Of a stretch of DNA of 64,000 nt, positions 46,686-62,087 are shown piece by piece. The position numbers were made by a program, and so were the translations under genes. Under the pieces are notes generated by a model. It searched no databases, was not told the DNA's origin, and was given only the letters and a program-made list of their open reading frames with translations. Every line of letters begins with the position of its first letter. Position 1 is the stretch's first letter. Origin of the DNA: Rhodospirillales bacterium (lineage in GTDB: Bacteria > Pseudomonadota > Alphaproteobacteria > ATCC43930 > CGMCC-115725); the NCBI GenBank assembly GCA_947473305.1, contig CANJCB010000004.1, positions 62,001 to 126,000 of the forward strand. The letters are read 5' to 3'.

Positions 46686-48134
46686 ATGCCGCTAGACGAG
46701 ACCCAACCCTTGGACCTTCGCAGCTGGCTCGCCCGCATGGAAGCGATGGGCGAGTTGAAGCATGTCAAGGGCGCCGACCGCGAGAACGAGATCGGTGGGA
46801 TGCTCGACATCTATATGCGCAAGATGGGCCGGCCGGCGCTGCTTTTCGAGGATATCCCGGGCTATAAGCCTGGCTTCCGGGTGCTTGCCAATATCTTCAC
46901 TTCCGTGAAGCGCATCGCGGTCACCATGGGCCTGCCGGAAAGCACGACCGAAATCGACCTCGTCCGCTTCTGGCGCGAATATTTCAAGGGCGCGCCGATG
47001 ATCGCGCCCACCACGGTCAATACGGGCTCCGTGCTGGAGAACAAATTCACCGGGAACGACATCAACCTGCTGACCATCCCGACGCCACGCTGGCACGAAG
47101 GCGACGGCGGCTATTACATCGGCACCGGCTGCATGGTGATCATGAAGGACCCGGATTCGGGCTGGATCAACTATGGCGCCTATCGCGTGCAGGTCCATGA
47201 CAAGAAGGTCGCCTCGGTCATGGCGTCCAAGGGCAAGCACGGCAATATCATCATGCGGAAGTACCACGAGCGGGGCGAGCCCTGCCCCATCGCGGTGGTC
47301 GTCGGCGTCCATCCCGGCCTCTTCTCGGTCGCGGGCTTCGAGATCCCCTATGGCAAGAACGAATACGACGCCGTGGGCGGGCTCCTGAAGCAGTCGGTCA
47401 AGGTCATCCAAGGCCCCCAGACCGGCCTGCCCATCCCGGCCGACGCGGAAATCGCCTTCGAGGGCTATGTCCACAAGGACGACCTCATCGAGGAAGGCCC
47501 CTTGGGGGAATGGACCGGCTATTACGCGGGCGGCACGAAGATGGAGCCCGCGATCCGGGTCGAGACCTTTATGCATCGCCACGATCCGATCCTGACCGGC
47601 GTGCTGCCGGCCGTGCCCCCCAACGACGACACCTTCTATCGCGGAACCTATCGTGCCGGCGCGGTTTGGCACGAGATCGAAGCGGCGGGCGTGCCGGAGG
47701 TCAAGGGCGTCTGGTCCCATGAGGCGGGCGGCAGCCGCATGTGGCTCACCGTCTCGATCAAGCAGATGTACGGCGGGCATTCGAAGCAAGCTGGCATTAT
47801 CGCCTCCCAATGCCATGCCGGCGCCTATGCCAACCGGGTCGTGGTGGTCGTCGATGACGACATCAATCCCGCCGATATGGACCAGGTGGTCTGGGCGATC
47901 TGCACCCGCTGCGACCCGCGCGAGGGCGTCGAGATCCTGAAGGGCTGCTGGAGCACGTCCCTCGATCCCATGGCCTATCCGCCGGACCAGCGCAACCTCA
48001 ACGCCCGCATGGTCATCGACGCCTGCAAGCCCTGGAACCGGGTCAAGGAATGGCCGGCCACGGTGCGGTCCAGCAAGGGGCTCGACGACCAGCTCCGCGC
48101 GAAGTTCCCGGACCTGATGCCGCCGGGCTTCTAA
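46686..48134 (+). CDS. UbiD family decarboxylase (prenylated-FMN dependent)
   Basis: A 482-residue UbiD-type decarboxylase. The block GAYRVQVHDKK carries the conserved Arg, AEIAFEGYV and EEGPLGEWTGYY carry the acidic residues of the E-R-E active site, and the C-terminal oligomerisation region DQVVWAICTRCDP is typical. The family reversibly decarboxylates aromatic, heteroaromatic and unsaturated acids using prenylated FMN made by UbiX; no ubiX-like gene is in the window. ATG 46686 follows GAGGAG. It is divergent from the isochorismatase operon (74 bp gap) and is followed after 6 nt by a Mo-hydroxylase, which resembles decarboxylase/hydroxylase pairs of heteroaromatic acid degradation such as furan or pyrrole carboxylates. 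Confidence 0.93.
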   Translation: MPLDETQPLDLRSWLARMEAMGELKHVKGADRENEIGGMLDIYMRKMGRPALLFEDIPGYKPGFRVLANIFTSVKRIAVTMGLPESTTEIDLVRFWREYFKGAPMIAPTTVNTGSVLENKFTGNDINLLTIPTPRWHEGDGGYYIGTGCMVIMKDPDSGWINYGAYRVQVHDKKVASVMASKGKHGNIIMRKYHERGEPCPIAVVVGVHPGLFSVAGFEIPYGKNEYDAVGGLLKQSVKVIQGPQTGLPIPADAEIAFEGYVHKDDLIEEGPLGEWTGYYAGGTKMEPAIRVETFMHRHDPILTGVLPAVPPNDDTFYRGTYRAGAVWHEIEAAGVPEVKGVWSHEAGGSRMWLTVSIKQMYGGHSKQAGIIASQCHAGAYANRVVVVVDDDINPADMDQVVWAICTRCDPREGVEILKGCWSTSLDPMAYPPDQRNLNARMVIDACKPWNRVKEWPATVRSSKGLDDQLRAKFPDLMPPGF

Positions 48135-48140
48135 AAGACC

Positions 48141-50444
48141 ATGGAGGCGAGGCCCCGCAGCGGGATCAATACCTATGTCGGAAGCCCCATCGAGCGGGTG
48201 GAAGACTTCCGGATGCTGCGCGGCGAAGGCCAATATGTGGGCGATCTCGCCCTGCCCGGCATGTGGCACGGCGCTGTGCTGCGCAGCCCCATGGCACATG
48301 GCCGCATCCGCTCGCTCGACGTGGCGGAAGCTCTCAAGGTGCCGGGGGTTCACGCCATCGTCACGGCGGCGGATGTGGGGCCTGACATCCCGATCATTCC
48401 CTTCCGTCGCCCCAATACCCTGGCCGCTGCCTTCCGCCAGCCGGTGATCGCCCGGGATATCGTTCGCTATGTGGGCGAGCCCATCGCCTTCGTGCTCGCG
48501 GATAGCGCCGAGGAAGCCGAGGACGCGCTCCAGGAAATCGCTTTCGACATCGAGCCTTTGCCGGTGGTGGCGGATTGGCGGATCTCGGCCAGCAACGAAA
48601 TCCTGCTGGTGCCCTCCAACGGCACGAATCAGGCGGCGCTTTTCCAGGCCAGGGCGGGGGATGCGGAAGCCGCCTTCGCCCAGGCCCCGCATGTCATTCG
48701 CTCGGATTTCAGCATCCAGCGCCAGACAGCGCTTCCTATGGAGACGCGCGGCCTCCTGGCGGTCTGGGACGAGGAGAAGGGCCGGCTCTCCATGTCGGGA
48801 GCGGCGAAGCTCCCCTTCTTCAACAAGCGCACCATGGCGGTGATGCTCGATATTCCCGAAGACAATGTCGATTACATCGAATTCGATGTGGGCGGCGGGT
48901 TCGGGGCGCGCGGCGAATTCTATCCCGAAGATTTCCTCGTCGCCTTCTCGGCACGGCGCTTCAAGCGTCCGGTGCGCTGGATCGAGGATCGGCGTGAGCA
49001 TTTCACCGCCATCGGCCATAGCCGCGAGACGGCGGCCGATCTGGAACTGGCCCTGGGAGTTGACGGGGAGATTCTGGGACTACGCGGGGAAGTCCGGGTC
49101 GATATTGGGGCCTATTGCCGGCCCAATGGGACCACAGCCGTCCGAAACGTCGCTCAATGCATGAGCAGCGCCTATCGGATTCCCAACCAGCAGGTCGACG
49201 CTCTCGCCTATGTCAGCAACAAGACGCCGTCGGGTACGTACCGGGGACCGGGCCGCTATGAAGCATGTTTCTTCATCGAGCGGCTCCTCGACATGGCGGC
49301 GGAGCGTTTCGGCTTCGACCGGGTGGAACTCAGGCGCAAGAACCTCGTCACCGCCGAGGAGATGCCCTGGCCCCTGGCAACCTGCATGCCCAACGACGGC
49401 TGGGGCAATACCGAATGCGACAGCGGCGATTTCCGCATCACCTTCGAGCGCTGCCTGGAGGAAGCCCATTGGTCGGAGCGCGCAAAACTCCAAGGCAAGC
49501 TGATCGACGGCAAGTACCATGGGCTCGGCTGTTCCGCCTTCATCGAGGGCGGCGCGTCAGGCCCGCGCGAGAATGCCCGCATCGAGACGAAAGCCGACGG
49601 CAGGGTGGTGGTCTTCGCCGGTTCTTCGGCAATCGGCCAGGGGCTTGAGACGATCCTGTCCCAGATCGCGGCGGACGCGCTGGAGGTTGATATCGGGCGC
49701 ATCACGGTGCTGCACGGCTCGACGACCTTGCTAAAGGAGGGGTTCGGCTCTTTCGGGTCTCGCGCCACCGTCATGGGCGGATCGGCGGTTCTGCTGGCGG
49801 CGCGCGCGGTGCTGGAGAAATTCCGCGCCGCGGCTGCGGAGAAATTCGGTGTCGCGCCCGACAGCCTGCATATTGCCAATGCAACAGCCACGGCGCCGGA
49901 CGGACGGTCGATGACGCTCGCGGAGGCTGGAGACTTGGAGGCGGATGGCACCTTCGCCAATTCCAAACAGACCTATACCTATGGGACGGCGGTCGCCTAT
50001 ATCACGGTCGATGCGGGAACGGGGCAGGTCGAGCTCAAGGACTATGTGGTCGTGGACGATGTGGGCCGCGCGATCAATCCCCTGACGCTCCATGGCCAGG
50101 TAATCGGCGCGGCGGTCCAAGGCCTCGGCAGCGTCTTCGGGGAGGAGATCGCCTATGACCGGGAAGGCCAGCCCCTGGTCGGCACCCTCGCCGACTATAT
50201 GGTGCCGCTGGCGACCGACTTTCCCGTCCTCCGCGCCGTGACGCTGGAGATGTTTCCCTCACCCAACAATCCGCTTGGGGCCAAGGGGGCCGGCGAAGGC
50301 GGCACCATTCCGGTCGGGGCCGCCATCGGCAACGCGGTCGCCTCGGCGCTCAAGGAGTTCGGGGTCGAGCCCCGACATCTGCCCCTGACCCCGGCCCGGA
50401 TCTGGGAGCTGATCGTGGAAGCCAAGGCGAAGCCCGCAGCATAA
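48141..50444 (+). CDS. Xanthine dehydrogenase family molybdopterin-binding subunit (CoxL-like), orphan
   Basis: A 767-residue Mo-hydroxylase large subunit, third of the orphan set. It shows VGSPIERVEDFRMLRG, GGGFGARGEFYPEDF, TYRGPGR, SSAIGQGLETI and KGAGEGG. It lies 6 nt after the UbiD gene with no obvious Shine-Dalgarno of its own. The medium FAD and small [2Fe-2S] subunits are not adjacent, so it must recruit subunits encoded elsewhere, or share them with its two paralogues. Pairing with UbiD suggests that an aromatic or heteroaromatic ring is hydroxylated before or after decarboxylation. The 3' end is 10 nt from the convergent GST gene. Confidence 0.9.
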   Translation: MEARPRSGINTYVGSPIERVEDFRMLRGEGQYVGDLALPGMWHGAVLRSPMAHGRIRSLDVAEALKVPGVHAIVTAADVGPDIPIIPFRRPNTLAAAFRQPVIARDIVRYVGEPIAFVLADSAEEAEDALQEIAFDIEPLPVVADWRISASNEILLVPSNGTNQAALFQARAGDAEAAFAQAPHVIRSDFSIQRQTALPMETRGLLAVWDEEKGRLSMSGAAKLPFFNKRTMAVMLDIPEDNVDYIEFDVGGGFGARGEFYPEDFLVAFSARRFKRPVRWIEDRREHFTAIGHSRETAADLELALGVDGEILGLRGEVRVDIGAYCRPNGTTAVRNVAQCMSSAYRIPNQQVDALAYVSNKTPSGTYRGPGRYEACFFIERLLDMAAERFGFDRVELRRKNLVTAEEMPWPLATCMPNDGWGNTECDSGDFRITFERCLEEAHWSERAKLQGKLIDGKYHGLGCSAFIEGGASGPRENARIETKADGRVVVFAGSSAIGQGLETILSQIAADALEVDIGRITVLHGSTTLLKEGFGSFGSRATVMGGSAVLLAARAVLEKFRAAAAEKFGVAPDSLHIANATATAPDGRSMTLAEAGDLEADGTFANSKQTYTYGTAVAYITVDAGTGQVELKDYVVVDDVGRAINPLTLHGQVIGAAVQGLGSVFGEEIAYDREGQPLVGTLADYMVPLATDFPVLRAVTLEMFPSPNNPLGAKGAGEGGTIPVGAAIGNAVASALKEFGVEPRHLPLTPARIWELIVEAKAKPAA

Positions 50445-51832: not shown

Positions 51833-53446
51833 CTATTTGGCCAGCCATGCGTCGGTCCAATTGCGATATTGGTCCGTGTCGTTCGCAAAGCCGTTGAGTT
51901 TCTTGGTCGCCGCATTGAAGAGGGCCTTCTCCCGCAGCGGCACGGTCGGCAGGTCGACGGCGAGGATCGCCTGCACCTGACGATAGAGCGCGCCTCGGTC
52001 GGCCTGGGACGGCGCGCCCGCCGCCTTGTCGAAGAGATCGTCGACCACGGGGTTCGAATAGTTGGACGAATTGGCGTAAAGCTTGCCGATCGCCGAACTG
52101 ATGAAGATCCTGGCCAATCCCACCGCCGGCTCATTGAAGGTCCCATAGCCATTGATCGTGATATCGAAATCATGGTCCTGGAACACGCGTTTCATATGGG
52201 TCGTGCGATCCACCGCCTCGATATCGAGATCCACACCGACATTCTTCCACATGCTCTTCAAGGCGGTGGAGACGAGCTGGTTGTCGCTCTCGTCGGTCGC
52301 ATAGACGAGCTTCAACTTGAAGCGCGTGCCGTCCGCTCCGCGCTTCAGCCCCGCTTCATCCAGCATCGCATTGGCCTTGGCGGGATCGAAGGCGTAGATC
52401 TTGTTGAAATCGATCTCGGGTGCTGCCGTCGCCCATTTGATCTCGCTGGACAGCGGCATGGAGCCGGCGCGCCCCTTGCCGAGCCAGCCGTTCTTGATGA
52501 GATAATCACGGTCGGTCGCCACATAGAGCGCCTGCCTCACCCGCTTGTCGTCGAGCGGCTTCCGCAGCACGTTGAAGGCCATGTAGTCGAGCGAGGGCGG
52601 CATGCTGGTCTGTTCCAGCTTCAGCTTGGGATTGGCCTCGATCGAGGGATGGTCGCTGTTCGGCAGGTAATAATAGAAGAGATAATCGACCTCTCCCGCC
52701 TGGAGCGCCTGGGTCCGTGCGGAAGGCTGTGGGATGATCCGGGCGATCACCTCGTCGAGATAGGGCTTGCCGGGCTCCCAATAGTTGGGGTTCCGCACCA
52801 TCCGGATGTTATCGCCGCGCTTCCATTCCTTCAGCATGAAGCCGCCGGTGCCCACCGGATTGTTCGTGGAGGCGGGGTTCTGCGGAATATTCGTGCCCTC
52901 GAAGACATGCTTCGGAAGAATCGCCCCGCCCCAACCGCAGGCGAGTGAAATGAGGAGAGGGCCGAAAGACTGCTTCAAGCGTACAACCGCCTTGTCGGGC
53001 GAAGGCGTGTCGACGCCTTCGATCATGCCTCCCGCGGCGGCAAAGGGCGGACTGATCTTGGCGTTCGCCTCGAGGAGAGAATATTTGACATCCGCCGAGG
53101 TAAAGGGCTTACCGTCGTTCCAATTCGCCGTCACGAGATCGAAAGTATAGGTCTTGCCGTCCGGCGAGATGGTCCAGGACTTGGCGAGCTGAGGGGCCAC
53201 CTCGCGCTTCCCATTCACCCGCGTCAGGCCCTGGAAAACCATGCAGCCGATGCTGCCATCGGGGATGCCGGTGGAGACCACGGGGTTCAAGGTCGGCGGA
53301 TCGGCGCCAAGCACCATGATGACCGTGCCGCCGCGCTGCGTCGTCTCCTGCGCGAGGGCGGCGCTCAGGGGATTGAGACTGAGAGCTGCGACGAAAGCGG
53401 CCACGCCTGTCAGAGTACGGCCGCCGGTCAACCCGTTACGTTCCAT
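51833..53446 (-). CDS. ABC transporter substrate-binding protein, family 5 (paralogue 9)
   Basis: A 537-residue exported binding protein, first gene of the SBP/SDR/GST operon. The signal peptide is long, ending near residue 32 (ALA|QETTQRGG). Paired cysteines lie in GCMVFQG and SLACGWGG; YWEPGKPYLDE, RKPLDDKRVR and the C-terminal WTDAWLAK are conserved. The pocket region FYYYLPNSDHPSI is its own. A TATAAT hexamer on the minus strand at 53481-53486 could be its -10 box, without a convincing -35. It is divergent from the Mo-hydroxylase/Sox operon across 196 bp, so a shared regulator is possible. Confidence 0.93.
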   Translation of the reverse strand: MERNGLTGGRTLTGVAAFVAALSLNPLSAALAQETTQRGGTVIMVLGADPPTLNPVVSTGIPDGSIGCMVFQGLTRVNGKREVAPQLAKSWTISPDGKTYTFDLVTANWNDGKPFTSADVKYSLLEANAKISPPFAAAGGMIEGVDTPSPDKAVVRLKQSFGPLLISLACGWGGAILPKHVFEGTNIPQNPASTNNPVGTGGFMLKEWKRGDNIRMVRNPNYWEPGKPYLDEVIARIIPQPSARTQALQAGEVDYLFYYYLPNSDHPSIEANPKLKLEQTSMPPSLDYMAFNVLRKPLDDKRVRQALYVATDRDYLIKNGWLGKGRAGSMPLSSEIKWATAAPEIDFNKIYAFDPAKANAMLDEAGLKRGADGTRFKLKLVYATDESDNQLVSTALKSMWKNVGVDLDIEAVDRTTHMKRVFQDHDFDITINGYGTFNEPAVGLARIFISSAIGKLYANSSNYSNPVVDDLFDKAAGAPSQADRGALYRQVQAILAVDLPTVPLREKALFNAATKKLNGFANDTDQYRNWTDAWLAK

Positions 53447-53642: not shown

Positions 53643-54092
53643 ATGGCGACGCTCAACGTCAACGGTAAAGCCTATAAGGCGGATGTCGATCCGCGCACGC
53701 CCCTGCTCTGGGCATTGAGGGACACCCTCGGTCTCACGGGCACCAAATACGGCTGCGGCATCGCCCAATGCGGAGCCTGCACGGTCCATGTGGAAGGGGT
53801 CGCCACCCGCTCCTGCTCGGTGCCGGTAAACGCGGTCCAGGGCAAGAAGATCACCACCATCTAAGGGCTCGAAGTCAACGGCAAGCTCAGCAAGGTGCAG
53901 CAGGCTTGGCTCGACAACGACGTGCCCCAATGCGGCTATTGCCAGAGCGGCATGATCATGGCGGTGACGGCGCTCCTGAAGGAGAAACCGAAGCCGACCG
54001 ACGCGGATATCGACGCCTCGCTCACCAATATCTGCCGCTGCGGCACCTACCAGCAGATCCGCCAGGCGATCCACGCCGCGGCCAAGGCATAG
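53643..54092 (+). pseudogene. [2Fe-2S] subunit of an IorA-like molybdenum hydroxylase, interrupted by in-frame TAA
   Basis: Read through one stop codon the frame encodes 149 residues with the full two-cluster architecture of the small subunit: N-terminal ferredoxin-like domain with the cysteine block [17 protein letters not shown], and C-terminal domain with [11 protein letters not shown] and the [11 protein letters not shown] block. At 53862-53864 the codon after KKITTI is TAA, followed in the same frame by [10 protein letters not shown]; family members have Glu here (TIEGL), so one base change from GAA explains it. The ribosome site GGAGGGG before ATG 53643 is excellent and the rest of the frame is intact, which suggests a very recent mutation, a sequencing error or real readthrough. 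It feeds electrons from the Mo subunit encoded 13 nt downstream. Confidence 0.85.
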
Positions 54093-54105
54093 GGAGGCAC
54101 GACCC

Positions 54106-56271
54106 ATGACCCATATGCCGAAACTCAATCGCCGCTCCTTCCTCACCGGCGCCGCAGCCGTTGGCGGAGGCCTGTCGCTGGGCATGCGCCTGCCCTTCGG
54201 CGGCAACGAAGCGCTGGCCGCCGACGCAACGCCCGAGGTCAATGCCTGGGTCGTCATCAAGCCCGACGACAAGGTCGTGATCCGCATCGCGCGCTCCGAG
54301 ATGGGCCAGGGCACCCTGACCGGCCTCGCCCAGCTCGTCGCCGAGGAGTTGGAATGCGACTGGTCGAAGGTCTCGACCGAATATCCGACGCCCGGCCAGA
54401 ACGTGGCCCGCAAACGCGTCTGGGGGAATTTCTCCACGGGCGGCAGCCGGGGCATCCGCGAATCCCATGAATATGTCCGCCAAGGCGGCGCCGCCGCCCG
54501 CGAAATGCTGATCGCCGCCGCCGCCGCTCAATGGAAGGTGCCGGCGTCGGAATGCAGCGCCGCCAAGAGCGTCATCACCCACAAGCCCTCGGGCAAGAAG
54601 ACCACCTATGGCAAGGTCGCCGACGCGGCCGCCAAGCTCGAACCGCCCAAGGATATCAAGCTCAAGGATCCCAAGGACTGGAAGATCGCGGGCAAGGGGC
54701 TGAAGCGCCTCGACACCCTGCCCAAGGTGAAGGGCGATCCGATCTTCGGTATCGACATCAAGATGCCAGGCATGCTGACCGCCGCGATCCGCGACTGTCC
54801 GGTCCAGGGCGGCAAGATCAAAAGCTTCGACGCCGCGAAGGTCATGAAGATGCCGGGCGTCAAGAAGGTGGTCCAGGTCGGCGATTCCGGCGTCGCGGTC
54901 GTGGCCGACAGTTTCTACAACGCCAAGACCGCCGTGGCCGCGCTGCCCATCCAATGGGATGAAGGCGAAGGGGCCAACGTCTCCAGCGAGACCATCGCGG
55001 CCCTGCTCAAGGAGGGTCTCAACGCCGAGCAGGCCTATGTCGGCAACAAGCAGGGCGACGCCAAGGCCGCCATCGCCGGGGCGGCGAAGAAGGTGGAGGC
55101 GGTCTACGCCTATCCCTATCAGAACCACGCCACCATGGAGCCGATGAACGCCACGGCGCTCTATACGGCCGATAAATGCGAGGCCTGGGGACCGACACAG
55201 AACGGCGAGGCGGCTCTCGCCGCGATGGCCGAGGCGGCGGAACTGCCGGTCGCGAAATGCGACTTCTACAAGACCCCGCTGGGCGGCGGTTTCGGCCGGC
55301 GCGGGCGGACCGACTACGTCCGTCAGGTGGTCCTTATCGCCAAGCAGATGCCGGGGATTCCGATCAAGCTGATCTGGACCCGCGAAGAGGACATGACCCA
55401 TTGCGCCTACCATCCGATCACCCAATGCAAGCTGACGGGGGGCTTCGACGCGGCGGGCAATCTGGTCGGGATCCATATGCGGATTTCGGGCCAGTCGATC
55501 TCGGCCTCTCTGGCGCCGCAAAACTTCCAGAACGGCATGGATCCCGTGGTGTTCCAGGGGCTCAATGCCGCCGGGGCCGAAGGGCAATACGGCTATAACG
55601 TGCCGAACCTGCTGATCGACCATGCGATGCGCAACACGCACATCCTGGCGGGCTTCTGGCGGGGCGTGAACGCGAACCACAACGCGATCTATGTCGAATG
55701 CTTCATGGACGAACTCGCCCATGCGGCGGGTCAGGATCCGCTGGCGTTCCGGCGCAAATACCTGAAGCCCAAGCATCTGGCCGTCTTGAACGCCGTTGCG
55801 GAAAAGGCCGGTTACGGAAAGGCCCCCAAGGGCGTGTTCCACGGGCTCGCCCAGATCATGGCCTTCGGCAGTTATGTGGCCGCCTGCGCCGAAGTCTCGG
55901 TCACGGACGGACAACTGAAGATCCGCCGCATCGTCGCCGCGACCGATCCCGGCTACATGGTCAACCCGACCCAGATCGAGCGCCAGGTCGCGGGCTCCTT
56001 CGTCTATGGCCTCTCGGCCATGATGTATGGCGAATGCACGGTGAAGAACGGCGCCATCGAGCAGACCAATTTCGACACCTATAACGTCATGCGCATCGAC
56101 GAAATGCCCAAGGTCGAAGCGATCATCATGCCCTCGGGCGGTTTCTGGGGTGGGGTCGGCGAGCCCACTATCGCCGTGGCGGCCCCGGCCGTGCTCAACG
56201 CGATCTTCGCGGCCACGGGCAAGCGCATCCGGGAGTTCCCGCTGATGAACCACGATCTGAGGACTGCGTGA
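54106..56271 (+). CDS. Xanthine dehydrogenase family Mo-binding subunit, IorB-like, Tat-exported
   Basis: A 721-residue molybdenum-hydroxylase subunit of the isoquinoline 1-oxidoreductase (IorB) branch, with two tandem aldehyde-oxidase-type halves. It starts with a twin-arginine signal (NRRSFLTG, Arg 9-10), so the enzyme acts in the periplasm, unlike the three CoxL-like subunits of the window. Motifs: SEMGQGTLTGLAQL, LGGGFGRRGRTDY, GFWRGVNANHNA and the catalytic GVGEP near the C-terminus. It overlaps the cytochrome gene by 4 bp (GTGA). IorB-type enzymes oxidise N-heterocycles or aldehydes and pass electrons through the [2Fe-2S] subunit to a cytochrome c. Here the acceptor genes are flavocytochrome c and Sox genes, which is unusual. 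Confidence 0.92.
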   Translation: MTHMPKLNRRSFLTGAAAVGGGLSLGMRLPFGGNEALAADATPEVNAWVVIKPDDKVVIRIARSEMGQGTLTGLAQLVAEELECDWSKVSTEYPTPGQNVARKRVWGNFSTGGSRGIRESHEYVRQGGAAAREMLIAAAAAQWKVPASECSAAKSVITHKPSGKKTTYGKVADAAAKLEPPKDIKLKDPKDWKIAGKGLKRLDTLPKVKGDPIFGIDIKMPGMLTAAIRDCPVQGGKIKSFDAAKVMKMPGVKKVVQVGDSGVAVVADSFYNAKTAVAALPIQWDEGEGANVSSETIAALLKEGLNAEQAYVGNKQGDAKAAIAGAAKKVEAVYAYPYQNHATMEPMNATALYTADKCEAWGPTQNGEAALAAMAEAAELPVAKCDFYKTPLGGGFGRRGRTDYVRQVVLIAKQMPGIPIKLIWTREEDMTHCAYHPITQCKLTGGFDAAGNLVGIHMRISGQSISASLAPQNFQNGMDPVVFQGLNAAGAEGQYGYNVPNLLIDHAMRNTHILAGFWRGVNANHNAIYVECFMDELAHAAGQDPLAFRRKYLKPKHLAVLNAVAEKAGYGKAPKGVFHGLAQIMAFGSYVAACAEVSVTDGQLKIRRIVAATDPGYMVNPTQIERQVAGSFVYGLSAMMYGECTVKNGAIEQTNFDTYNVMRIDEMPKVEAIIMPSGGFWGGVGEPTIAVAAPAVLNAIFAATGKRIREFPLMNHDLRTA

Positions 56272-56561
56272 TCGGAAGAAGAGCGGCGCTCGCCGCCGTC
56301 ATTCTCCTCTCTCCCCTGGCCGCGCGGGCGGCGGAGGCTCCTTCGGGGGCTGCCGCCTGCTCGGGCTGTCACGCGGCCGGCACCTCGGTGGACACCCCCG
56401 TGCCGCCGCTCGCCGGGCGTCATCCGCTGGAACTCTACGGGGCGTTGCAGGCCTTCAAGACCGGGCAGCGGCAGGGCACGATCATGGATCGGATCGCCAA
56501 GGGCTTCACCGACGATGAGCTCAAGTCGATCGCGGAATGGTACGGCGCGCAGAAGGAATGA
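56268..56561 (+). CDS. fccA: Monohaem cytochrome c, flavocytochrome c (FccA-like) subunit
   Basis: A 97-residue exported c-type cytochrome with a GTG start overlapping the upstream stop by 4 bp. The signal peptide covers about 22 residues; the haem site is CSGCH at residues 31-35 and a Met ligand candidate is in GTIMDRIAKGF. The pattern PPLAGRHPLELYGALQAFKTGQR matches the cytochrome subunit of sulfide-dehydrogenating flavocytochrome c. The next gene, 4 nt later, encodes the flavoprotein subunit. Its place between the Mo-hydroxylase and FccB lets it serve either as electron acceptor. The FccA name is based on this pairing; a general cytochrome c for the Mo enzyme is the alternative. Confidence 0.85.
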   Translation: MIGRRAALAAVILLSPLAARAAEAPSGAAACSGCHAAGTSVDTPVPPLAGRHPLELYGALQAFKTGQRQGTIMDRIAKGFTDDELKSIAEWYGAQKE

Positions 56562-56565
56562 CGCC

Positions 56566-57834
56566 ATGAGGAACCGGCGCGATTTTCTCAAGACCGGCGT
56601 CGGCGTGGCGGCGACAGGCCTCTTTCCGCACGTCGCCATCGGACAGACTGCCTCGCCCAAGGTCGTGGTGATCGGCGGCGGCTTCGCCGGCGCGACCTGC
56701 GCGAGGATGCTGAAGCGGCTCGATCCCCGGATCGCGATCACCCTGGTGGAACAGAACCCGGTCTTCACCGCCTGCCCCTTCAGCAACGAGGTCCTGGCCG
56801 GGCTCCGGGATATCAAGGATCAGGAGTTCGACTACAAGAAAATCGTCGGCGACGGCGTAAACCTCGCCGTCATGGCGGCCACAGGCATCGATCATCAGGC
56901 CCGGACCGTCAGCCTGAGCGACGGTTCGACGCTTGCCTACGATCGTCTGGTGGTCGCACCGGGCGTGGACTTCCGCTGGGATGCGCTGCCCGGCTATACC
57001 GAGGCGGCGGCGGAGCGGATGCCTCATGCTTGGAAAGCGGGTGCGCAAACCCTGCTCCTGCGCCAACACCTCGAGGCCATGGAGGACGGTGGGCTTGTGG
57101 TCATCGCCGCGCCCGCCAATCCTTATCGCTGTCCTCCGGGACCCTATGAGCGGGCAAGCCTCATCGCGCATTACCTCAAGGCAAAAAAACCCAAGTCCAA
57201 GATCGTCATTCTCGATACCAAGGACGCCTTCTCGAAGCAGAAGCTTTTTGAGGAGGGCTGGAAAGCGCTCTATCCCGGCCTTGTCGAATGGGTGCCCTTG
57301 TCCCAGGGCGGGAAAGTAACCTCGGTCGAGCCCGCGTCGATGACCGTCGCAACGGATTTCGACAAGCACAAACCGGCCGTCGCCAATATCATCCCGCCGC
57401 AGAAGGCCGGAAAGATCGCGGAGTTGGCGGGGGTTGCCGACCGCACCGGCTGGTGCCCCATCGATCCCCTGACCTTCGCCTCGACGCTCCAGCCCAATAT
57501 CCATGTGATCGGAGACGCCGCCATCGCGGGCGCCATGCCCAAGTCGGCTTTCGCGGCCAATTCCCAGGCCAAGGTCTGCGCGGCCGCGGTGGCAAAGCTG
57601 CTGGCCGGCGGGACGGTCGCCGAGAACAAGCTCGTCAACACCTGCTACAGCTTGGTGGCGCCCGATTATGGGATCACCGTGGCCGGGGTTTATCATCCGG
57701 TGAATGGGCAGCTCGTCGATGTCGAAGGCGCCGGCGGCACCAGTCCGGTCAATGCGCCGGCCACCACCCGCGCGCTGGAAGCAAGTCTCGCCAATGGCTG
57801 GTTCAAGACGATCACCGGCGAAGTCTTCGGTTGA
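56566..57834 (+). CDS. fccB: Flavocytochrome c sulfide dehydrogenase flavoprotein subunit (FccB/SoxF)
   Basis: A 422-residue FAD protein of the FccB/SoxF and sulfide:quinone reductase family. It has a twin-arginine signal (NRRDFLKTG), the FAD loop VVIGGGFAGATCA, Cys70 in FTACPFSNEV (position of the covalent FAD link in FccB), Cys in NPYRCPPGPYER and Cys in VNTCYSLVAPDYG, the likely redox-active pair. It transfers electrons from sulfide or sulfane sulfur to cytochrome c in the periplasm. ATG 56566 is chosen, since the frame open from 56515 lies in the cytochrome gene. Soft overlap with soxX follows. SoxF is a usual accessory of Sox operons and can reactivate SoxYZ. Confidence 0.92.
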   Translation: MRNRRDFLKTGVGVAATGLFPHVAIGQTASPKVVVIGGGFAGATCARMLKRLDPRIAITLVEQNPVFTACPFSNEVLAGLRDIKDQEFDYKKIVGDGVNLAVMAATGIDHQARTVSLSDGSTLAYDRLVVAPGVDFRWDALPGYTEAAAERMPHAWKAGAQTLLLRQHLEAMEDGGLVVIAAPANPYRCPPGPYERASLIAHYLKAKKPKSKIVILDTKDAFSKQKLFEEGWKALYPGLVEWVPLSQGGKVTSVEPASMTVATDFDKHKPAVANIIPPQKAGKIAELAGVADRTGWCPIDPLTFASTLQPNIHVIGDAAIAGAMPKSAFAANSQAKVCAAAVAKLLAGGTVAENKLVNTCYSLVAPDYGITVAGVYHPVNGQLVDVEGAGGTSPVNAPATTRALEASLANGWFKTITGEVFG

Positions 57835-58276
57835 GCGCGTCGCCCTGGCGATGCTCGCCCTGACGATGACGGCGCCAGCCCTCGCCATGGATCCGCAGCC
57901 CTATGCGGTGGTGGGCGACACGATCCCGCTTTCCCTCACCGGAGGGAGAGGCGATCCCGCAAAGGGCCGCTCCATCGTCGCAACACGAACCCAGGGGCTT
58001 TGCCTGCTCTGTCACAGCGGGCCGATACCGGAAGAACGGTTGCAGGGAACCCTCGCGCCGAACCTCGCGGGCGCGGGGTCTCGCTCGACGGAGGGGCAGC
58101 TCCGGCTCCGCATCGTCGATGCGAGCCGCGTCAATCCCGATACGATCATGCCCCCCTATTACCGGACCGACGGTTTGGAGCGGGTCTCGAAATCCTTCGC
58201 CGGAAAGCCCATCTTGACGGCGGAAGAGATCGAGGATGTGGTGGCCTATCTCCTGACGCTGCGAGAGGCGCCGTGA
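57794..58276 (+). CDS. soxX: Sulfur oxidation c-type cytochrome SoxX
   Basis: About 160 residues from ATG 57794, which overlaps the end of fccB by 41 bp and gives a signal peptide with basic n-region (AGSRRSPAKS) and hydrophobic core ending at PALA. ATG 57851 is the alternative, but leaves no basic n-region. The haem site is CLLCH, and the Met ligand is in DTIMPPYYRTDG, as in SoxX. The C-terminal EEIEDVVAYLLTLR is typical of the family. SoxX pairs with SoxA to couple thiosulfate oxidatively to the SoxY cysteine. Its stop overlaps the soxY start by 4 bp. Confidence 0.9.
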   Translation: MAGSRRSPAKSSVERVALAMLALTMTAPALAMDPQPYAVVGDTIPLSLTGGRGDPAKGRSIVATRTQGLCLLCHSGPIPEERLQGTLAPNLAGAGSRSTEGQLRLRIVDASRVNPDTIMPPYYRTDGLERVSKSFAGKPILTAEEIEDVVAYLLTLREAP

Positions 58277-58728
58277 CCGGTATCGATGAAACGAGACGCG
58301 GCCTCCTGATCGGCGCTGGCCTCCTGGTGCTTGGCATAAAGCCGGCCCGCGCCACGCCGGAGGCGATGAAGGACGCGATCCGCACGGTGATCGGCGACGC
58401 TCCCTTGCGCGAGGGCAAGGTAACGCTCGACGTGCCGCCCCTGGTGGAGAACGGCAATACGGTGCCGGTGACCGTCGCCGTCGAAAGCCCCATGACCGAC
58501 GCGGACTATGTCCGGGCGATCCATGTCTTCAACGAGAAGAACCCGCAGCCCTTCGTCATCACCGTCCGCCTGACGCCGCGCAACGGCCGCGCCCGGATCG
58601 CGACCCGCATGAAGCTCGCCGATACCCAGACCGTGATCGCCGTGGCGGAAATGAGCGACGGCAGCTTCTGGAAGGCGAGCGCCGAGGTCATCGTGACCAT
58701 CGCCGCCTGCATCGAGGACATCAACTGA
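58273..58728 (+). CDS. soxY: Sulfur-carrier subunit SoxY with atypical C-terminal arm
   Basis: A 151-residue protein (GTG 58273, overlapping soxX by 4 bp) with a twin-arginine-like signal (TRRGLLIGAG) and an immunoglobulin-like SoxY domain; blocks VRAIHVFNEKNPQPF and RMKLADTQTVIAVAE fit the family. SoxY normally ends in a flexible GGCGG arm whose Cys carries the sulfur intermediate. Here the end reads VTIAACIEDIN: the Cys (146) is in place but the flanking glycines are Ala, and five residues follow it. The arm must fit into the active sites of SoxA, SoxB and SoxCD, so this version may work with different partners or carry a different group. It forms the heterodimer with SoxZ. Confidence 0.9.
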   Translation: MTGIDETRRGLLIGAGLLVLGIKPARATPEAMKDAIRTVIGDAPLREGKVTLDVPPLVENGNTVPVTVAVESPMTDADYVRAIHVFNEKNPQPFVITVRLTPRNGRARIATRMKLADTQTVIAVAEMSDGSFWKASAEVIVTIAACIEDIN

Positions 58729-59048
58729 TGGCGCGCGCGCTCATCAATGTGCCCGCCACCGCCAAGCCCGGCGAGATCATCGAGATCAAGACCCTGATCT
58801 CCCATCCGATGGAGACGGGCTATCGGGTCGGCTACGACGGCGCGATGATCCCACGCGATATCATCGCCAATTTCACCGTGACCTATAATGGCGACGAGAT
58901 CTTCCGCGCGCAGCTTTCCCCCGCCATCGCCGCCAATCCCTTCGTGAGCTTCTGCACGGTCGCGAAGGAGAGCGGCACCCTCACCTTCCATTGGACCGGC
59001 GACAACGGCTTCACCGCCACCGAGACGGCCAAGATCACCGTGGAATGA
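58728..59048 (+). CDS. soxZ: Thiosulfate oxidation carrier complex protein SoxZ
   Basis: A 106-residue SoxZ. The blocks ALINVPATAKPGEIIEIKT, SHPMETGYR, IPRDIIANFTVTYNG and ANPFVSFCTVAKESG are characteristic. ATG 58728 shares a base with the soxY stop (TGATG) and its stop overlaps the soxA start by 4 bp. SoxZ has no signal peptide, as usual; it is exported together with SoxY through SoxY's twin-arginine signal. It supports the swinging arm of SoxY. It looks entirely normal, so the change in SoxY is local to the arm. Confidence 0.95.
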   Translation: MARALINVPATAKPGEIIEIKTLISHPMETGYRVGYDGAMIPRDIIANFTVTYNGDEIFRAQLSPAIAANPFVSFCTVAKESGTLTFHWTGDNGFTATETAKITVE

Positions 59049-59842
59049 GCAGGCAGGGCCTGGTCGCGCTCGCTTGTCTCTGGATCGCGGGTCTTGCCGG
59101 GCTCGTTTCCTGGGGCGGACAAGCGGCGGAAATCCCGCTTCAAGACCGTCAATCCGGCTACCAGCTCATGACGCCTGAAACCCGCGCCATGCAGGACGAC
59201 GATGCCGCCAATCCCGGCATGCTCTGGGTGCTCGACGGCGAGGCGCTCTGGCAGCGCAAGGACGGCCGGGCCAATCTCTCTTGCGCCGACTGCCACGGCG
59301 ACGCGCGCCAGTCGATGAAGGGCGTCGCCGCGCGCTATCCCGCCGTCGATCCCGGGCTTCAAAAACCGGTCGATCTCGAACAGCGCATCGAGATGTGCCG
59401 CACGGAAAAACAGCAGGCGCCGCCGTTAAGAGCGGAAGGCAAGGACCTCTTGGCGCTGGCCGCCTATGTGGCGCGGCAATCGAAGGGAATGCCCATCGCG
59501 GTGGTCGAGGACGACCACACGCGCCCTTTCATTTCCGCGGGCCGCGAGATCTACGAGCGCCGGCAGGGCCAGCTCAATCTCTCCTGCGCCAATTGTCATG
59601 ACGACAATTCCGGCAAACGGCTTGCGGGCTCCCCGATCCCCCAGGCGCATCCCACGGGATACCCGCTCTACCGGCTTGAATGGCAGACCCTGGGCTCGCT
59701 TCAGCGGCGGCTCCGGAACTGCCTCGTGGGCATGCGCGCGGAACCCTATGCCCCTGGCGCGCCCGAATACGCAGAGCTGGAGCTTTACCTGATGTGGCGC
59801 GCACGGGGGATGCCCATGGAAGCGCCGGGAGTGCGGCCCTAG
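59045..59842 (+). CDS. soxA: Sulfur oxidation c-type cytochrome SoxA (dihaem)
   Basis: A 265-residue exported dihaem cytochrome from ATG 59045. Haem motifs are CADCH (residues 80-84) and CANCH (181-185); Cys226 in RRLRNCLVGMRAE is the expected persulfide-type ligand and active-site Cys of the SoxA family. The signal peptide ends near residue 27. SoxA with SoxX joins the sulfur substrate to the Cys of SoxY. The gene is the last of the operon, and its stop codon is inside the first arm of an inverted repeat. No soxB, soxC or soxD gene follows, since the next gene is convergent. Confidence 0.95.
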   Translation: MSRQGLVALACLWIAGLAGLVSWGGQAAEIPLQDRQSGYQLMTPETRAMQDDDAANPGMLWVLDGEALWQRKDGRANLSCADCHGDARQSMKGVAARYPAVDPGLQKPVDLEQRIEMCRTEKQQAPPLRAEGKDLLALAAYVARQSKGMPIAVVEDDHTRPFISAGREIYERRQGQLNLSCANCHDDNSGKRLAGSPIPQAHPTGYPLYRLEWQTLGSLQRRLRNCLVGMRAEPYAPGAPEYAELELYLMWRARGMPMEAPGVRP

Positions 59843-59966: not shown

Positions 59967-62087
59967 CTAGCGCTTGGCGGCGACGAAGAGCGCGTCGACG
60001 ATGCGCACCTCGCCGGAACCCTTGCGGATGAGGACCGGATTGAGATCGCATTCCGCGAGCACGCCGCCCATATCCGCCGCCAGTTCGGAGAGATTGGCGA
60101 CGAGGCCCGAAAGCTTCGCAAAGTCGGTCTTCGCGATCAGGTTGCGATAGCCACCGAGGAGAGCGCCCAGCCGCGTGCCGCCGATCATCCCGGAAGCCTC
60201 TTCCGCGGTGACAGGGCTGAGGCTCACGGTCCGGTCGTTCTGCAATTCGACCATGGTGCCCCCGGTGCCGACGATGATCAGCGCGCCGAAGGGAGGCGTC
60301 GCCTGGAAGCCGACCATGGCCTCCACGCAATCGACCATCTCTTCCTGCAATTCGTAGCCTTCGATGCGGGCCTTGGGCACATGAGTGCGTACCGCGTCCT
60401 CGATCGCCGCGACCGCCAGACGGAGCGCTGCGGCGTCCTTGATCCCGAGTTTCACCGCGCCGATGTCGGAGCGATGCGGCACGTCGGGGGAAAGCACCTT
60501 GGCAACGAGCGGATATCCCACCTTCTCAGCCAGCTTCACCGCGTCTTCCGCCGACTTCGCCACGGCCGAGCCGACCACGGGGATCTTATAGGCATCCAGC
60601 AGCCGGCGGGTGAGATCCGCCGACAAGGGGCCGGAAACGGCCTCGATGTCCTGACGCAGCGTCGCTTTTTCGGCTGAAAGCTGGCGGCTGCCGCCCCGGC
60701 GCGCATCGGGTTTGCGCAAGGCCCAATCCGAGAAAATCCCGGCGGACTTCAGCCCGACGCGGAGGCCACGCAGCAGCGGTACGTCGCTGCCATCGAGGCC
60801 CGATTTGATTTCCGGATGAAGCGCCTCGCCACTCGACGAAGCGACAGCGACGGGTTTTTCGGTCGTCTTGCTGAATTCGGCGACATTCTTCATCTGCTGG
60901 GTATAGCGACCCGAACTCCGCCAGGCCAAGGAGGCCTGGGCGTCCTGGATCACGAAGATCTGGTCGACGTTCGGATCCTTGGCGATCACATCGAAGGCTT
61001 CGAGCTCCGAGCGTGACGCGGCCGTCGTCGTGACCGAAGCGCCGAAGTCGATGGGATTGATCCCGTTGCAGCCCGGCAACAGCCGCTGAAGCTCGGCGGT
61101 CGTCGCGTCGGTGAAGGTCGAAAACGTGACGCCGAGGGATTCCGCCAGATCGCAGGCCAGAGCCGCCTCGCCGCCCGAAATGCCGACGACGGCGATCTGG
61201 CGGCCGCGCGGCCGCCGCTCCGTCTTGGCGAAATATTCCATTGAGGCGACCAGTTCCTCGTAGTCGTTCACGGTCGGGATGCCATAGCGCTTGAAAAAGG
61301 CATCCGTCGCATCCCGGCTGCGGATCAGCGCGCCGGTATGGGCCTGGGTCGCGACGGCGCCCAGCGCCGACTGCCCGACCTTCAGCACGACAGCAGCCTT
61401 GCCGTTCGCTTGCAGAAGATCGATGGCATCGGCAAAGGCATCGGGATCGGGGATCTGTTCCAGCACCATGCCCACGACGCGGGTGTGTTCGTCCGTGGCG
61501 AGCCAGCGGGCGAAATCGGCCGCGCCGATCTGCCACTCGCTGCCGCTGGTGATGACCTTGGAAAACCCCACGTCGGTCGAATTCATGACCGAAATGGCGG
61601 CCGAGCCGGATTGCGCGATAAGCGCCGCATAGCCGGGCTTCACCCGGGACGTGGGGATCGCCGTATAGAGCTGGATCAATTCCGACCAATTGATATGGCC
61701 CATGCAATTGGGCCCATGGACGATGATCCTGCCCTCGCGGCAGATGCGCTTGGTCTCGGCCTCTTCCTCGGGCGTGAAGCCGTTGGACATGACGATGGCG
61801 GATTTGCAGCCGATCTGGTCGAGCCGCCTCAGCGCATCGGGCACGCTGGAAGCCGGCACCGAGATCACTGCCGTATCGACCTCGGAACCCGGAAGATCCT
61901 CGATCCGCGCCACCGCCTCATAGCCGACGATCTCCTTCGCTTCCGGATGGACGGGGATCACCCGCCCCGGAAAGTTCGCGTCGTGAAGGTTGATGAGAAC
62001 GACATTGCCATTGTTCTTCCGCGTGGCCGAAGCCCCCAGCACTGCCAAGGTCTTGGGGCGGATGACGGGGTCGAGATTCCTGATCAT
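59967..62087 (-). CDS. ADP-forming acyl-CoA synthetase (acetate-CoA ligase family), fused alpha/beta
   Basis: About 706 residues from ATG 62087 (GGAGAG 6 nt upstream); GTG 62108 is an alternative start with its own GGGAGG. Domain order: CoA-binding (about 5-130; TLAVLGASATRKNNG), ligase domains with the phospho-His motif AHTGAL, and C-terminal ATP-grasp (about 490-700; GYPLVAKVLSPDV). It resembles the enzyme at 6193 only at family level, so the two are not recent copies. It follows the family-5 SBP at 62155 on the same strand with a hairpin between them. It probably activates the acid imported by that transporter as a CoA ester. Confidence 0.9.
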   Translation of the reverse strand: MIRNLDPVIRPKTLAVLGASATRKNNGNVVLINLHDANFPGRVIPVHPEAKEIVGYEAVARIEDLPGSEVDTAVISVPASSVPDALRRLDQIGCKSAIVMSNGFTPEEEAETKRICREGRIIVHGPNCMGHINWSELIQLYTAIPTSRVKPGYAALIAQSGSAAISVMNSTDVGFSKVITSGSEWQIGAADFARWLATDEHTRVVGMVLEQIPDPDAFADAIDLLQANGKAAVVLKVGQSALGAVATQAHTGALIRSRDATDAFFKRYGIPTVNDYEELVASMEYFAKTERRPRGRQIAVVGISGGEAALACDLAESLGVTFSTFTDATTAELQRLLPGCNGINPIDFGASVTTTAASRSELEAFDVIAKDPNVDQIFVIQDAQASLAWRSSGRYTQQMKNVAEFSKTTEKPVAVASSSGEALHPEIKSGLDGSDVPLLRGLRVGLKSAGIFSDWALRKPDARRGGSRQLSAEKATLRQDIEAVSGPLSADLTRRLLDAYKIPVVGSAVAKSAEDAVKLAEKVGYPLVAKVLSPDVPHRSDIGAVKLGIKDAAALRLAVAAIEDAVRTHVPKARIEGYELQEEMVDCVEAMVGFQATPPFGALIIVGTGGTMVELQNDRTVSLSPVTAEEASGMIGGTRLGALLGGYRNLIAKTDFAKLSGLVANLSELAADMGGVLAECDLNPVLIRKGSGEVRIVDALFVAAKR

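Follow-up and report, generated by a model that had tools for sequence, protein, structure and literature searches.

Molybdenum hydroxylase genes of the IorAB type are linked to soxXYZA with a variant SoxY arm in a recurrent gene module of Pseudomonadota

The window analysed here is a stretch of 64,000 nucleotides (contig CANJCB010000004.1 of GenBank assembly GCA_947473305.1, Rhodospirillales bacterium, positions 62,001 to 126,000 of the forward strand), and at 53643-59842 on its forward strand it carries a tightly packed run of eight genes in the order iorA-iorB-cytochrome c-fccB-soxX-soxY-soxZ-soxA. On sequence grounds, iorAB together with a soxXYZA set whose SoxY ends in an AAC-type swinging arm constitutes a recurrent, SoxB-independent module of predicted periplasmic location, to which we give the name Ior-Sox. 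Its IorAB, SoxXA and AAC-arm SoxYZ very probably act in one process, and that process is not thiosulfate oxidation by SoxB. As far as searched, this conserved Sox-type carrier variant tied to a molybdenum (Mo) hydroxylase is undescribed.

Gene families of the run were assigned with Pfam and NCBIfam profiles; for iorA, the C-terminal half was scanned. Open reading frame (ORF) positions and families bear out the eight genes, their order and their common strand as given in the initial annotation, which also spoke of a Mo hydroxylase "fused" into the operon; the genes do form an operon-like run as judged by their spacing, but they are separate and no gene fusion is present. The features are:

53643..54092, forward: iorA-like [2Fe-2S] subunit, split by an in-frame TAA (N-terminal part of 73 aa; C-terminal Fer2_2 half at 53865-54089)
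53862-53864, forward: premature in-frame stop of iorA, a TAA in the linker that joins its two [2Fe-2S] domains
54106..56271, forward: iorB-like Mo subunit of the xanthine oxidase family, 721 aa (MoCoBD_1/2; twin-arginine signal by eye; Glu686)
56268..56561, forward: single-haem cytochrome c (CSGCH; Pfam/NCBIfam cytochrome c), FccA-like by position
56566..57834, forward: fccB, flavocytochrome c sulfide dehydrogenase flavoprotein (FCSD; Cys pair C190 and C361 in aligned query numbering)
57851..58276, forward: soxX, monohaem cytochrome (77.6 bits, cut-off 61; the ATG at 57851 is an assumed, uncertain start)
58273..58728, forward: soxY paralogue of TIGR04487, its swinging arm of the AACIE type (GTG taken as the start)
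58728..59048, forward: soxZ (87.5 bits, cut-off 76)
59045..59842, forward: soxA, dihaem, with active-site Cys ligand C228 (aligned query) kept (234.6 bits, cut-off 110)

Neighbouring genes overlap by 4 bp (iorB/cytochrome c, soxX/soxY and soxZ/soxA) or 1 bp (soxY/soxZ), and the other three junctions are short gaps of 13, 4 and 16 bp.

The gene order recurs widely. A TIGR04487 profile search of 398 sampled Pseudomonadota genomes gave 15 above the cut-off, and about 19 kb was taken around the 20 best SoxY loci outside the host genome (L031-L050). At 19 of these 20 loci iorA and iorB immediately precede soxXYZA, fccB being interposed in some and missing in others; the remaining one (L050) has a GGCGG arm, and its stretch includes soxB. 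The module was also found in relatives from the host's family, order and class (G410, G421, G423 and G424), and a further relative (G436) has soxX at a different position and a broken iorB. Named genomes were scanned with an IorB alignment and the best 80 loci were kept; all counts below out of 80 or 64 rest on these. All four sox genes lie within 9 kb of iorB at 64 loci, some of them at four and none at 12. Three of the four partial loci end within 2.5 kb of iorB, six of the 12 sox-free loci have less than 2.4 kb downstream, and nine of the 16 incomplete loci have less than 2.5 kb of downstream sequence. The sox genes are clearly absent, with at least 5 kb available downstream, at L140, L164, L173, L180, L181 and L191, and L129 has soxYZ only. 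Hosts with all four sox genes include Bradyrhizobium, Tardiphaga, Microvirga, Methylobacterium, Reyranella, Bosea, Ancylobacter, Azorhizobium, Azospirillum, Belnapia, Falsiroseomonas, Duganella, Roseateles, Zwartia and Polynucleobacter.

The SoxY arm partitions with its neighbours. The window SoxY is a member of TIGR04487, "SoxY-related AACIE arm protein" (215.1 bits, cut-off 172), and scores below the cut-off of the true-SoxY profile TIGR04488 (114 bits, cut-off 125). Its C-terminal end reads AACIEDIN, where the canonical arm reads GGCGG. At the named loci the SoxY arm shows AC preceded by A, S, G or N, or else ASC, and the next residue is I, L, T, V, S or F; none of 66 is GGCGG. Twenty loci around other SoxY genes were fetched, nine of them from genomes that also carry the module; the arm is GGCGG in all 20, soxB lies in the stretch in 19, and iorB in none. 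Across all loci compared, AC/SC arms occur with iorB at 92 and without it at five (loci of only 2.5-3.4 kb), GGCGG arms with iorB at none and without it at 15, and four other arms at none and four, respectively. In a SoxY tree (113 of 116 rows, after duplicates and short rows were dropped) the AC/SC arms form one clade of 96 rows with support of 100/100, so the arm change looks like a single event, kept since. The arm motif (GGCGG vs AC, typically AAC-x-E) is a simple sequence-level test separating the two systems. One assembly (G496) has iorAB-soxYZ without soxXA at one locus (L129 8535-12052) and, at a second (L201), soxXYZA whose arm reads TACLD. In another assembly a single-haem protein of 103 aa, and no sox gene, comes after clade-type iorAB (L140 8504-11458); its fccB-soxYZ-like cluster (L199) has the arm TDGCA.

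IorB follows the same division. Among the 398 genomes, the 20 with the strongest IorB (at least 1293.6 bits) are exactly the 20 with a SoxY of at least 158.1 bits on TIGR04487; two of them (G292 and G381) have a second, sox-free IorB copy. Three more genomes have an IorB of 1000-1250 bits (G139, G187 and G299), of which G187 and G299 lack sox genes beside iorB; the SoxY of G299 is a GGCGG protein beside soxB, and that of G187 is a SoxY-like protein without the arm cysteine. In an IorB tree (135 rows minus nine of unknown context and five duplicates) the sox-linked IorBs fall in one clade (101 of 121 rows; Shimodaira-Hasegawa approximate likelihood ratio test support, SH-aLRT, 100), which includes eight rows without linked sox; the exceptions are the sox-linked L106, just outside, and a second L148 copy mislabelled as sox-linked. 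A residue comparison that also omits L148_2297 (the second, upstream iorB) and the eight clade members without linked sox sets GEPTIAV in the clade against mostly GEPG in 18 unlinked IorBs, near Glu686, the presumed catalytic Glu of the family; N522 and H436 also distinguish the clade. Glu686 itself is present in 94 of 94 rows and likewise in 18 of 18 unlinked rows. Two sox-free loci in Polynucleobacter-like genomes, L191 (8322-11753) and L238 (8900-12293), have iorAB followed by a membrane protein of about 211 aa that is MsrQ/YedZ-like by eye.

These data bear on the idea that the two halves of the module are merely co-regulated, as two independent periplasmic respiratory branches (one for an aldehyde or heterocycle, one for sulfur compound oxidation) under one promoter. 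Several members of the IorB clade lack adjacent sox genes, and the L173 and L181 genomes hold an AAC-arm SoxYZ with soxXA away from the clade-type iorAB that was detected, both as this idea would have it. The identical sets of 20 genomes out of 398 and the clade-specific arm and IorB residues oppose it, and we regard it as improbable. That the adjacency is incidental is ruled out by the recurrent order, the arm partition and the co-occurrence of IorB and SoxY; the coupling pointed out in the initial annotation is found in the same gene order in dozens of genomes.

Neither SoxB nor SoxC accompanies the module at its locus. The host assembly comprises 4.70 Mb in 105 contigs and has a listed completeness of 100%. 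A profile search of it gave no SoxB match and nothing for SoxC beyond a partial 35-bit match (cut-off 420), SoxD not being searched; its single SoxY and single SoxZ both lie within the operon. The missing SoxB is not a failure of the method, since the same search detects SoxB above cut-off in 16 of 20 and 26 of 55 other genomes. The absence of SoxB and SoxCD noticed from the window thus extends to the genome for SoxB and SoxC. Neither outcome that the initial annotation had named as counting against its reading was seen: this genome holds no soxB or soxC at another place, and other genomes do share the gene order. Judged against the canonical Sox pathway, the host has a SoxXA with haem and active-site motifs and lacks SoxB, a GGCGG arm and SoxCD (with the same proviso for SoxD). 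Neither soxB nor soxC was found near iorB at any of the best 80 IorB loci. Among 75 module genomes, SoxB is above cut-off in 41 and missing from 34 (15 and 5 in a set of 20, 26 and 29 in a set of 55); the set of 55 comprises 50 of the 64 complete named loci plus five G genomes, and may overlap with the set of 20. The expectation that soxB would be missing each time therefore holds at the locus (0 of 80) but not genome-wide, as 41 of 75 genomes have SoxB elsewhere. In the nine module genomes whose canonical locus was fetched, SoxB occupies a separate locus together with a GGCGG SoxY of that locus. The 34 SoxB-free genomes include 14 named genomes not marked as metagenome-assembled and four single-contig ones, two from the host's order (G423 and G424) and two from another family (G323 and G220); others are metagenome assemblies that may be incomplete. 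SoxC is above cut-off in 10 of 20 module genomes searched.

The initial annotation had offered the Mo hydroxylase as a possible substitute for SoxCD, on which reading the operon would oxidise thiosulfate. The host genome has no SoxC, and both enzymes contain molybdenum. Their Mo families differ, however (xanthine oxidase vs sulfite oxidase), SoxB is absent from 34 of 75 module genomes, SoxC is present in 10 of the 20 searched, and the carrier arm is unlike the one found beside SoxB and SoxC. We rejected this substitution on its chemistry and on the SoxB and SoxC distribution, and hold it to be highly improbable.

Across the module, SoxXA, FccB and IorB retain their catalytic residues. SoxA has two CxxCH motifs and C228 in 88 of 88 aligned module rows, SoxX has CxxCH in 91 of 91, and the SoxY arm cysteine is present in 14 of 14 aligned rows. 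FccB has C190 in 58 of 58 and C361 in 57 of 57 aligned rows, presumably a redox pair. SoxA is closest to the dihaem SoxA 1h31 and FccB to 5n1t (481 bits). In the window, IorB has the MoCoBD domains and the presumed catalytic Glu, and FccAB has the FCSD domains and the Cys pair. The closest solved relative of IorB, by sequence and by predicted fold, is the Mo subunit of a membrane-bound aldehyde dehydrogenase (8gy3, 27% identity); the structure model was used for the fold search only and is of moderate confidence (mean predicted local distance difference test score, pLDDT, of 71.5 from a 14-row alignment).

Xanthine oxidase-type enzymes hydroxylate carbon with water. We tentatively favour a mechanism, somewhat short of an even chance, in which SoxYZ would supply IorAB with a sulfur compound that has an oxidisable carbon, residual sulfide or sulfane sulfur passing to FccAB. 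SoxXA would oxidatively couple the SoxY arm cysteine to a sulfur nucleophile bearing such a carbon, for which a thiol, a thio-heterocycle or a hemithioacetal-type adduct are candidates. The altered arm would offer the conjugate to IorAB rather than to SoxB, and the Mo centre of IorAB would hydroxylate the carbon with oxygen from water. Electrons would then pass through the Fe-S clusters to c-type cytochromes, either the small cytochrome c or, in modules lacking its gene, SoxXA. The C-S bond would break up, and FccAB, where present, would take the leftover sulfide or sulfane sulfur. This organosulfur carrier, the other option raised in the initial annotation, is the best of several mechanisms, all unproven, and the simplest reading in which every part has a use.

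FccAB, counted as part of the core in the initial annotation, is better described as optional: fccB is present in 37 of 64 complete loci, so that IorAB-SoxXYZA is the common core, and FccAB was rejected as a core member. Where present, fccB lies between iorB and soxX in 50 rows, after soxA in three and upstream of iorA in one, and the copies at the latter two positions form a separate deep branch of the FccB tree (FastTree, unrooted). These placements and branches suggest separate recruitment, and hence that sulfide or sulfane sulfur may take part in the process. The module fccB of Azorhizobium doebereinerae (L170) has a stop codon within the match and may be broken.

The loci without fccB lend themselves to another explanation, in which the substrate of IorAB is an ordinary one that may contain no sulfur (an aldehyde, for instance), SoxXA serves mainly as its electron acceptor or redox partner, and SoxYZ clears poisoning sulfur ligands or thiols from the Mo or haem. 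In all 27 fccB-free complete loci (27 of 64), the 1.5 kb around the module contains no other CxxCH ORF on its strand, leaving SoxX and SoxA as the sole cytochromes at hand, and soxX begins 23-212 bp after iorB (aligned ends). Genome G139, which keeps iorAB-soxXA without SoxYZ, favours a direct link between SoxXA and IorAB. The relationship of IorB to a membrane-bound Mo aldehyde dehydrogenase, an enzyme that works with cytochromes, points the same way. Electron transfer alone would need neither the active-site Cys of SoxA (88 of 88) nor the arm Cys of SoxY (14 of 14), though, and hardly any module locus lacks the carrier; we think this explanation unlikely.

Enzymes of the xanthine oxidase family need a Mo=S ligand. 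A maintenance role, in which SoxYZ-SoxXA (with FccAB where it occurs) delivers sulfane sulfur to the periplasmic Mo centre and so restores that ligand, would answer this established requirement, and FccAB could produce sulfane sulfur from sulfide. Moreover, the only further SoxYZ-like carriers with an enzyme link for which a description was found adjoin pyrroloquinoline quinone (PQQ) dehydrogenases, and they have been proposed to act in maturation or redox control (PMC12997753). Set against this are the unlinked IorABs of the wider family, which do without such a system (18 unlinked rows; G187 and G299), the retention of SoxXA without SoxYZ in G139, and an XdhC-type gene, which we take to encode a sulfuration factor, adjoining the module in one lineage (L045). 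A maintenance role is accordingly rated as quite unlikely.

Several observations weigh against the organosulfur carrier and against a strict link of its parts. In G139, a single contig, an intact iorA-iorB-soxX-soxA stands in a row (L234 8849-12920) and no SoxY or SoxZ match was found anywhere in the genome; IorAB and SoxXA can thus be retained side by side when the carrier is lacking, and this speaks against a simple carrier model. Clade-type IorB occurs without an AAC-arm SoxY in the assembly in G187, G299 and the genomes of L140, L164, L174 and L180. The agreement of the two sets of 20 genomes was obtained with an IorB profile built from 14 rows, 10 of them from the 20 genomes ranked highest, and with a 158-bit SoxY line set post hoc at the gap between 158.1 (iorAB-linked) and 144.2 (GGCGG). 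The tree points to a single origin of the AAC arm, so that the link between arm and partner would count as one retained event and not as many independent ones. No conserved neighbour points to a substrate among the flanking-ORF clusters and the ten ORFs scanned, and the iorA of the window is itself interrupted.

That interruption is an in-frame TAA (53862-53864), which divides the N-terminal [2Fe-2S] part from the C-terminal Fer2_2 part, so that iorA is not an intact ORF and an intact small subunit with two [2Fe-2S] motifs is not found in this genome. The stop occurs in none of 101 iorA copies of relatives. The eight cluster Cys of IorA are kept in 101 of 101 relatives' rows, and all eight are present in the window copy too. 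The stop may reflect a recent loss, an assembly or sequencing error, or a split into two domain-sized pieces. The Mo enzyme of this strain may be inactive owing to the stop, unless it is a sequencing error or the halves are made separately.

The module shares parts with known systems and differs from each. In common with the canonical Sox pathway it has the SoxXA haem and active-site Cys motifs, SoxZ, and a cysteine in the C-terminal arm of SoxY; it differs in having no SoxB or SoxC, in its typically AAC-x-E arm (vs GGCGG) and in its link to a Mo hydroxylase of another family. With IorAB and 8gy3 it shares the fold and length of the Mo subunit and a two-cluster small subunit, whereas the module IorB is set apart by the 27% identity, by clade-specific residues near the presumed catalytic Glu and by the adjacent sox genes. 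FccAB resembles FccAB/SoxEF in its match to 5n1t and its Cys pair, and differs in being optional. A quinoprotein dehydrogenase-associated carrier (ped PP_2677/PP_2678; TIGR04557) likewise places a SoxYZ-like carrier with a periplasmic carbon-oxidising dehydrogenase; as described in PMC12997753, that system has a fused SoxYZ, a PQQ enzyme, a SoxH-like hydrolase and a rhodanese. The soxY and soxZ of the module are separate genes, and the window SoxY and SoxZ score 66.3 and 41.5 bits on TIGR04557 (cut-off 140) and do not form a fused SoxYZ.

The existence of TIGR04487, of which the window SoxY is a member, means that curators had already noticed the SoxY variant; the family names SoxY alone, with no IorAB link. 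No paper was found for its accession or full name in a full-text literature search, and no description of the IorAB link or of the module in the literature searched, subscription papers being largely outside that search. In SAR324 an fcc gene lies beside soxY and soxZ with no further sox, and the authors considered a possible novel mechanism; the available part of that paper states no IorAB linkage for the cluster, though it reports isoquinoline 1-oxidoreductase genes in those genomes (PMC4782131). For Bradyrhizobium diazoefficiens, only one of two soxY genes is described as essential for thiosulfate oxidation and soxY2, a candidate for an AAC-arm gene, as dispensable for it (PMC5748708).

The module occurs in many soil and freshwater bacteria. 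In its widest form the proposal is that about 5% of the sampled Pseudomonadota species (20 of 398) hold a second Sox branch, independent of SoxB and thiosulfate, whose arm would carry organosulfur to a Mo hydroxylase; we consider this conceivable and somewhat doubtful. Were the carrier indeed to present an organic group to the Mo hydroxylase, the Sox swinging arm would have found a second use in carbon-sulfur chemistry. The question is open to direct test in several named strains that carry the module and no SoxB, Roseateles depolymerans and Azorhizobium doebereinerae among them. Genome surveys commonly use soxA, soxX, soxY and soxZ as markers of thiosulfate oxidation. The sox genes of the module genomes probably belong to another process, so that counts of these markers would make sulfur lithotrophy seem commoner than it is, for example in Bradyrhizobium, Polynucleobacter, Duganella, Roseateles and Reyranella.

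Clusters of flanking ORFs (top 70, many of them shadow frames) and ten hand-picked ORFs revealed no conserved transporter or catabolic neighbour; the ten gave ABC, SDR, MFS, TctC, permease, XdhC-MobA, MoaA-like and LysR-type families and two ORFs without a family, and the commonest genuine flanking gene is an ABC ATPase, in 20 loci. At L045 (11109-13632, f14 genome) genes for an XdhC-MobA fusion and a MoaA-like protein lie downstream of the module, consistent with a dedicated supply of Mo cofactor. A promoter and terminator scan gave a signal no better than shuffles. Upstream of the operon lies a divergent solute-binding protein gene (51833-53446), and farther upstream (46686-50444) a UbiD-type decarboxylase gene adjoins that of a second xanthine dehydrogenase-type Mo subunit.

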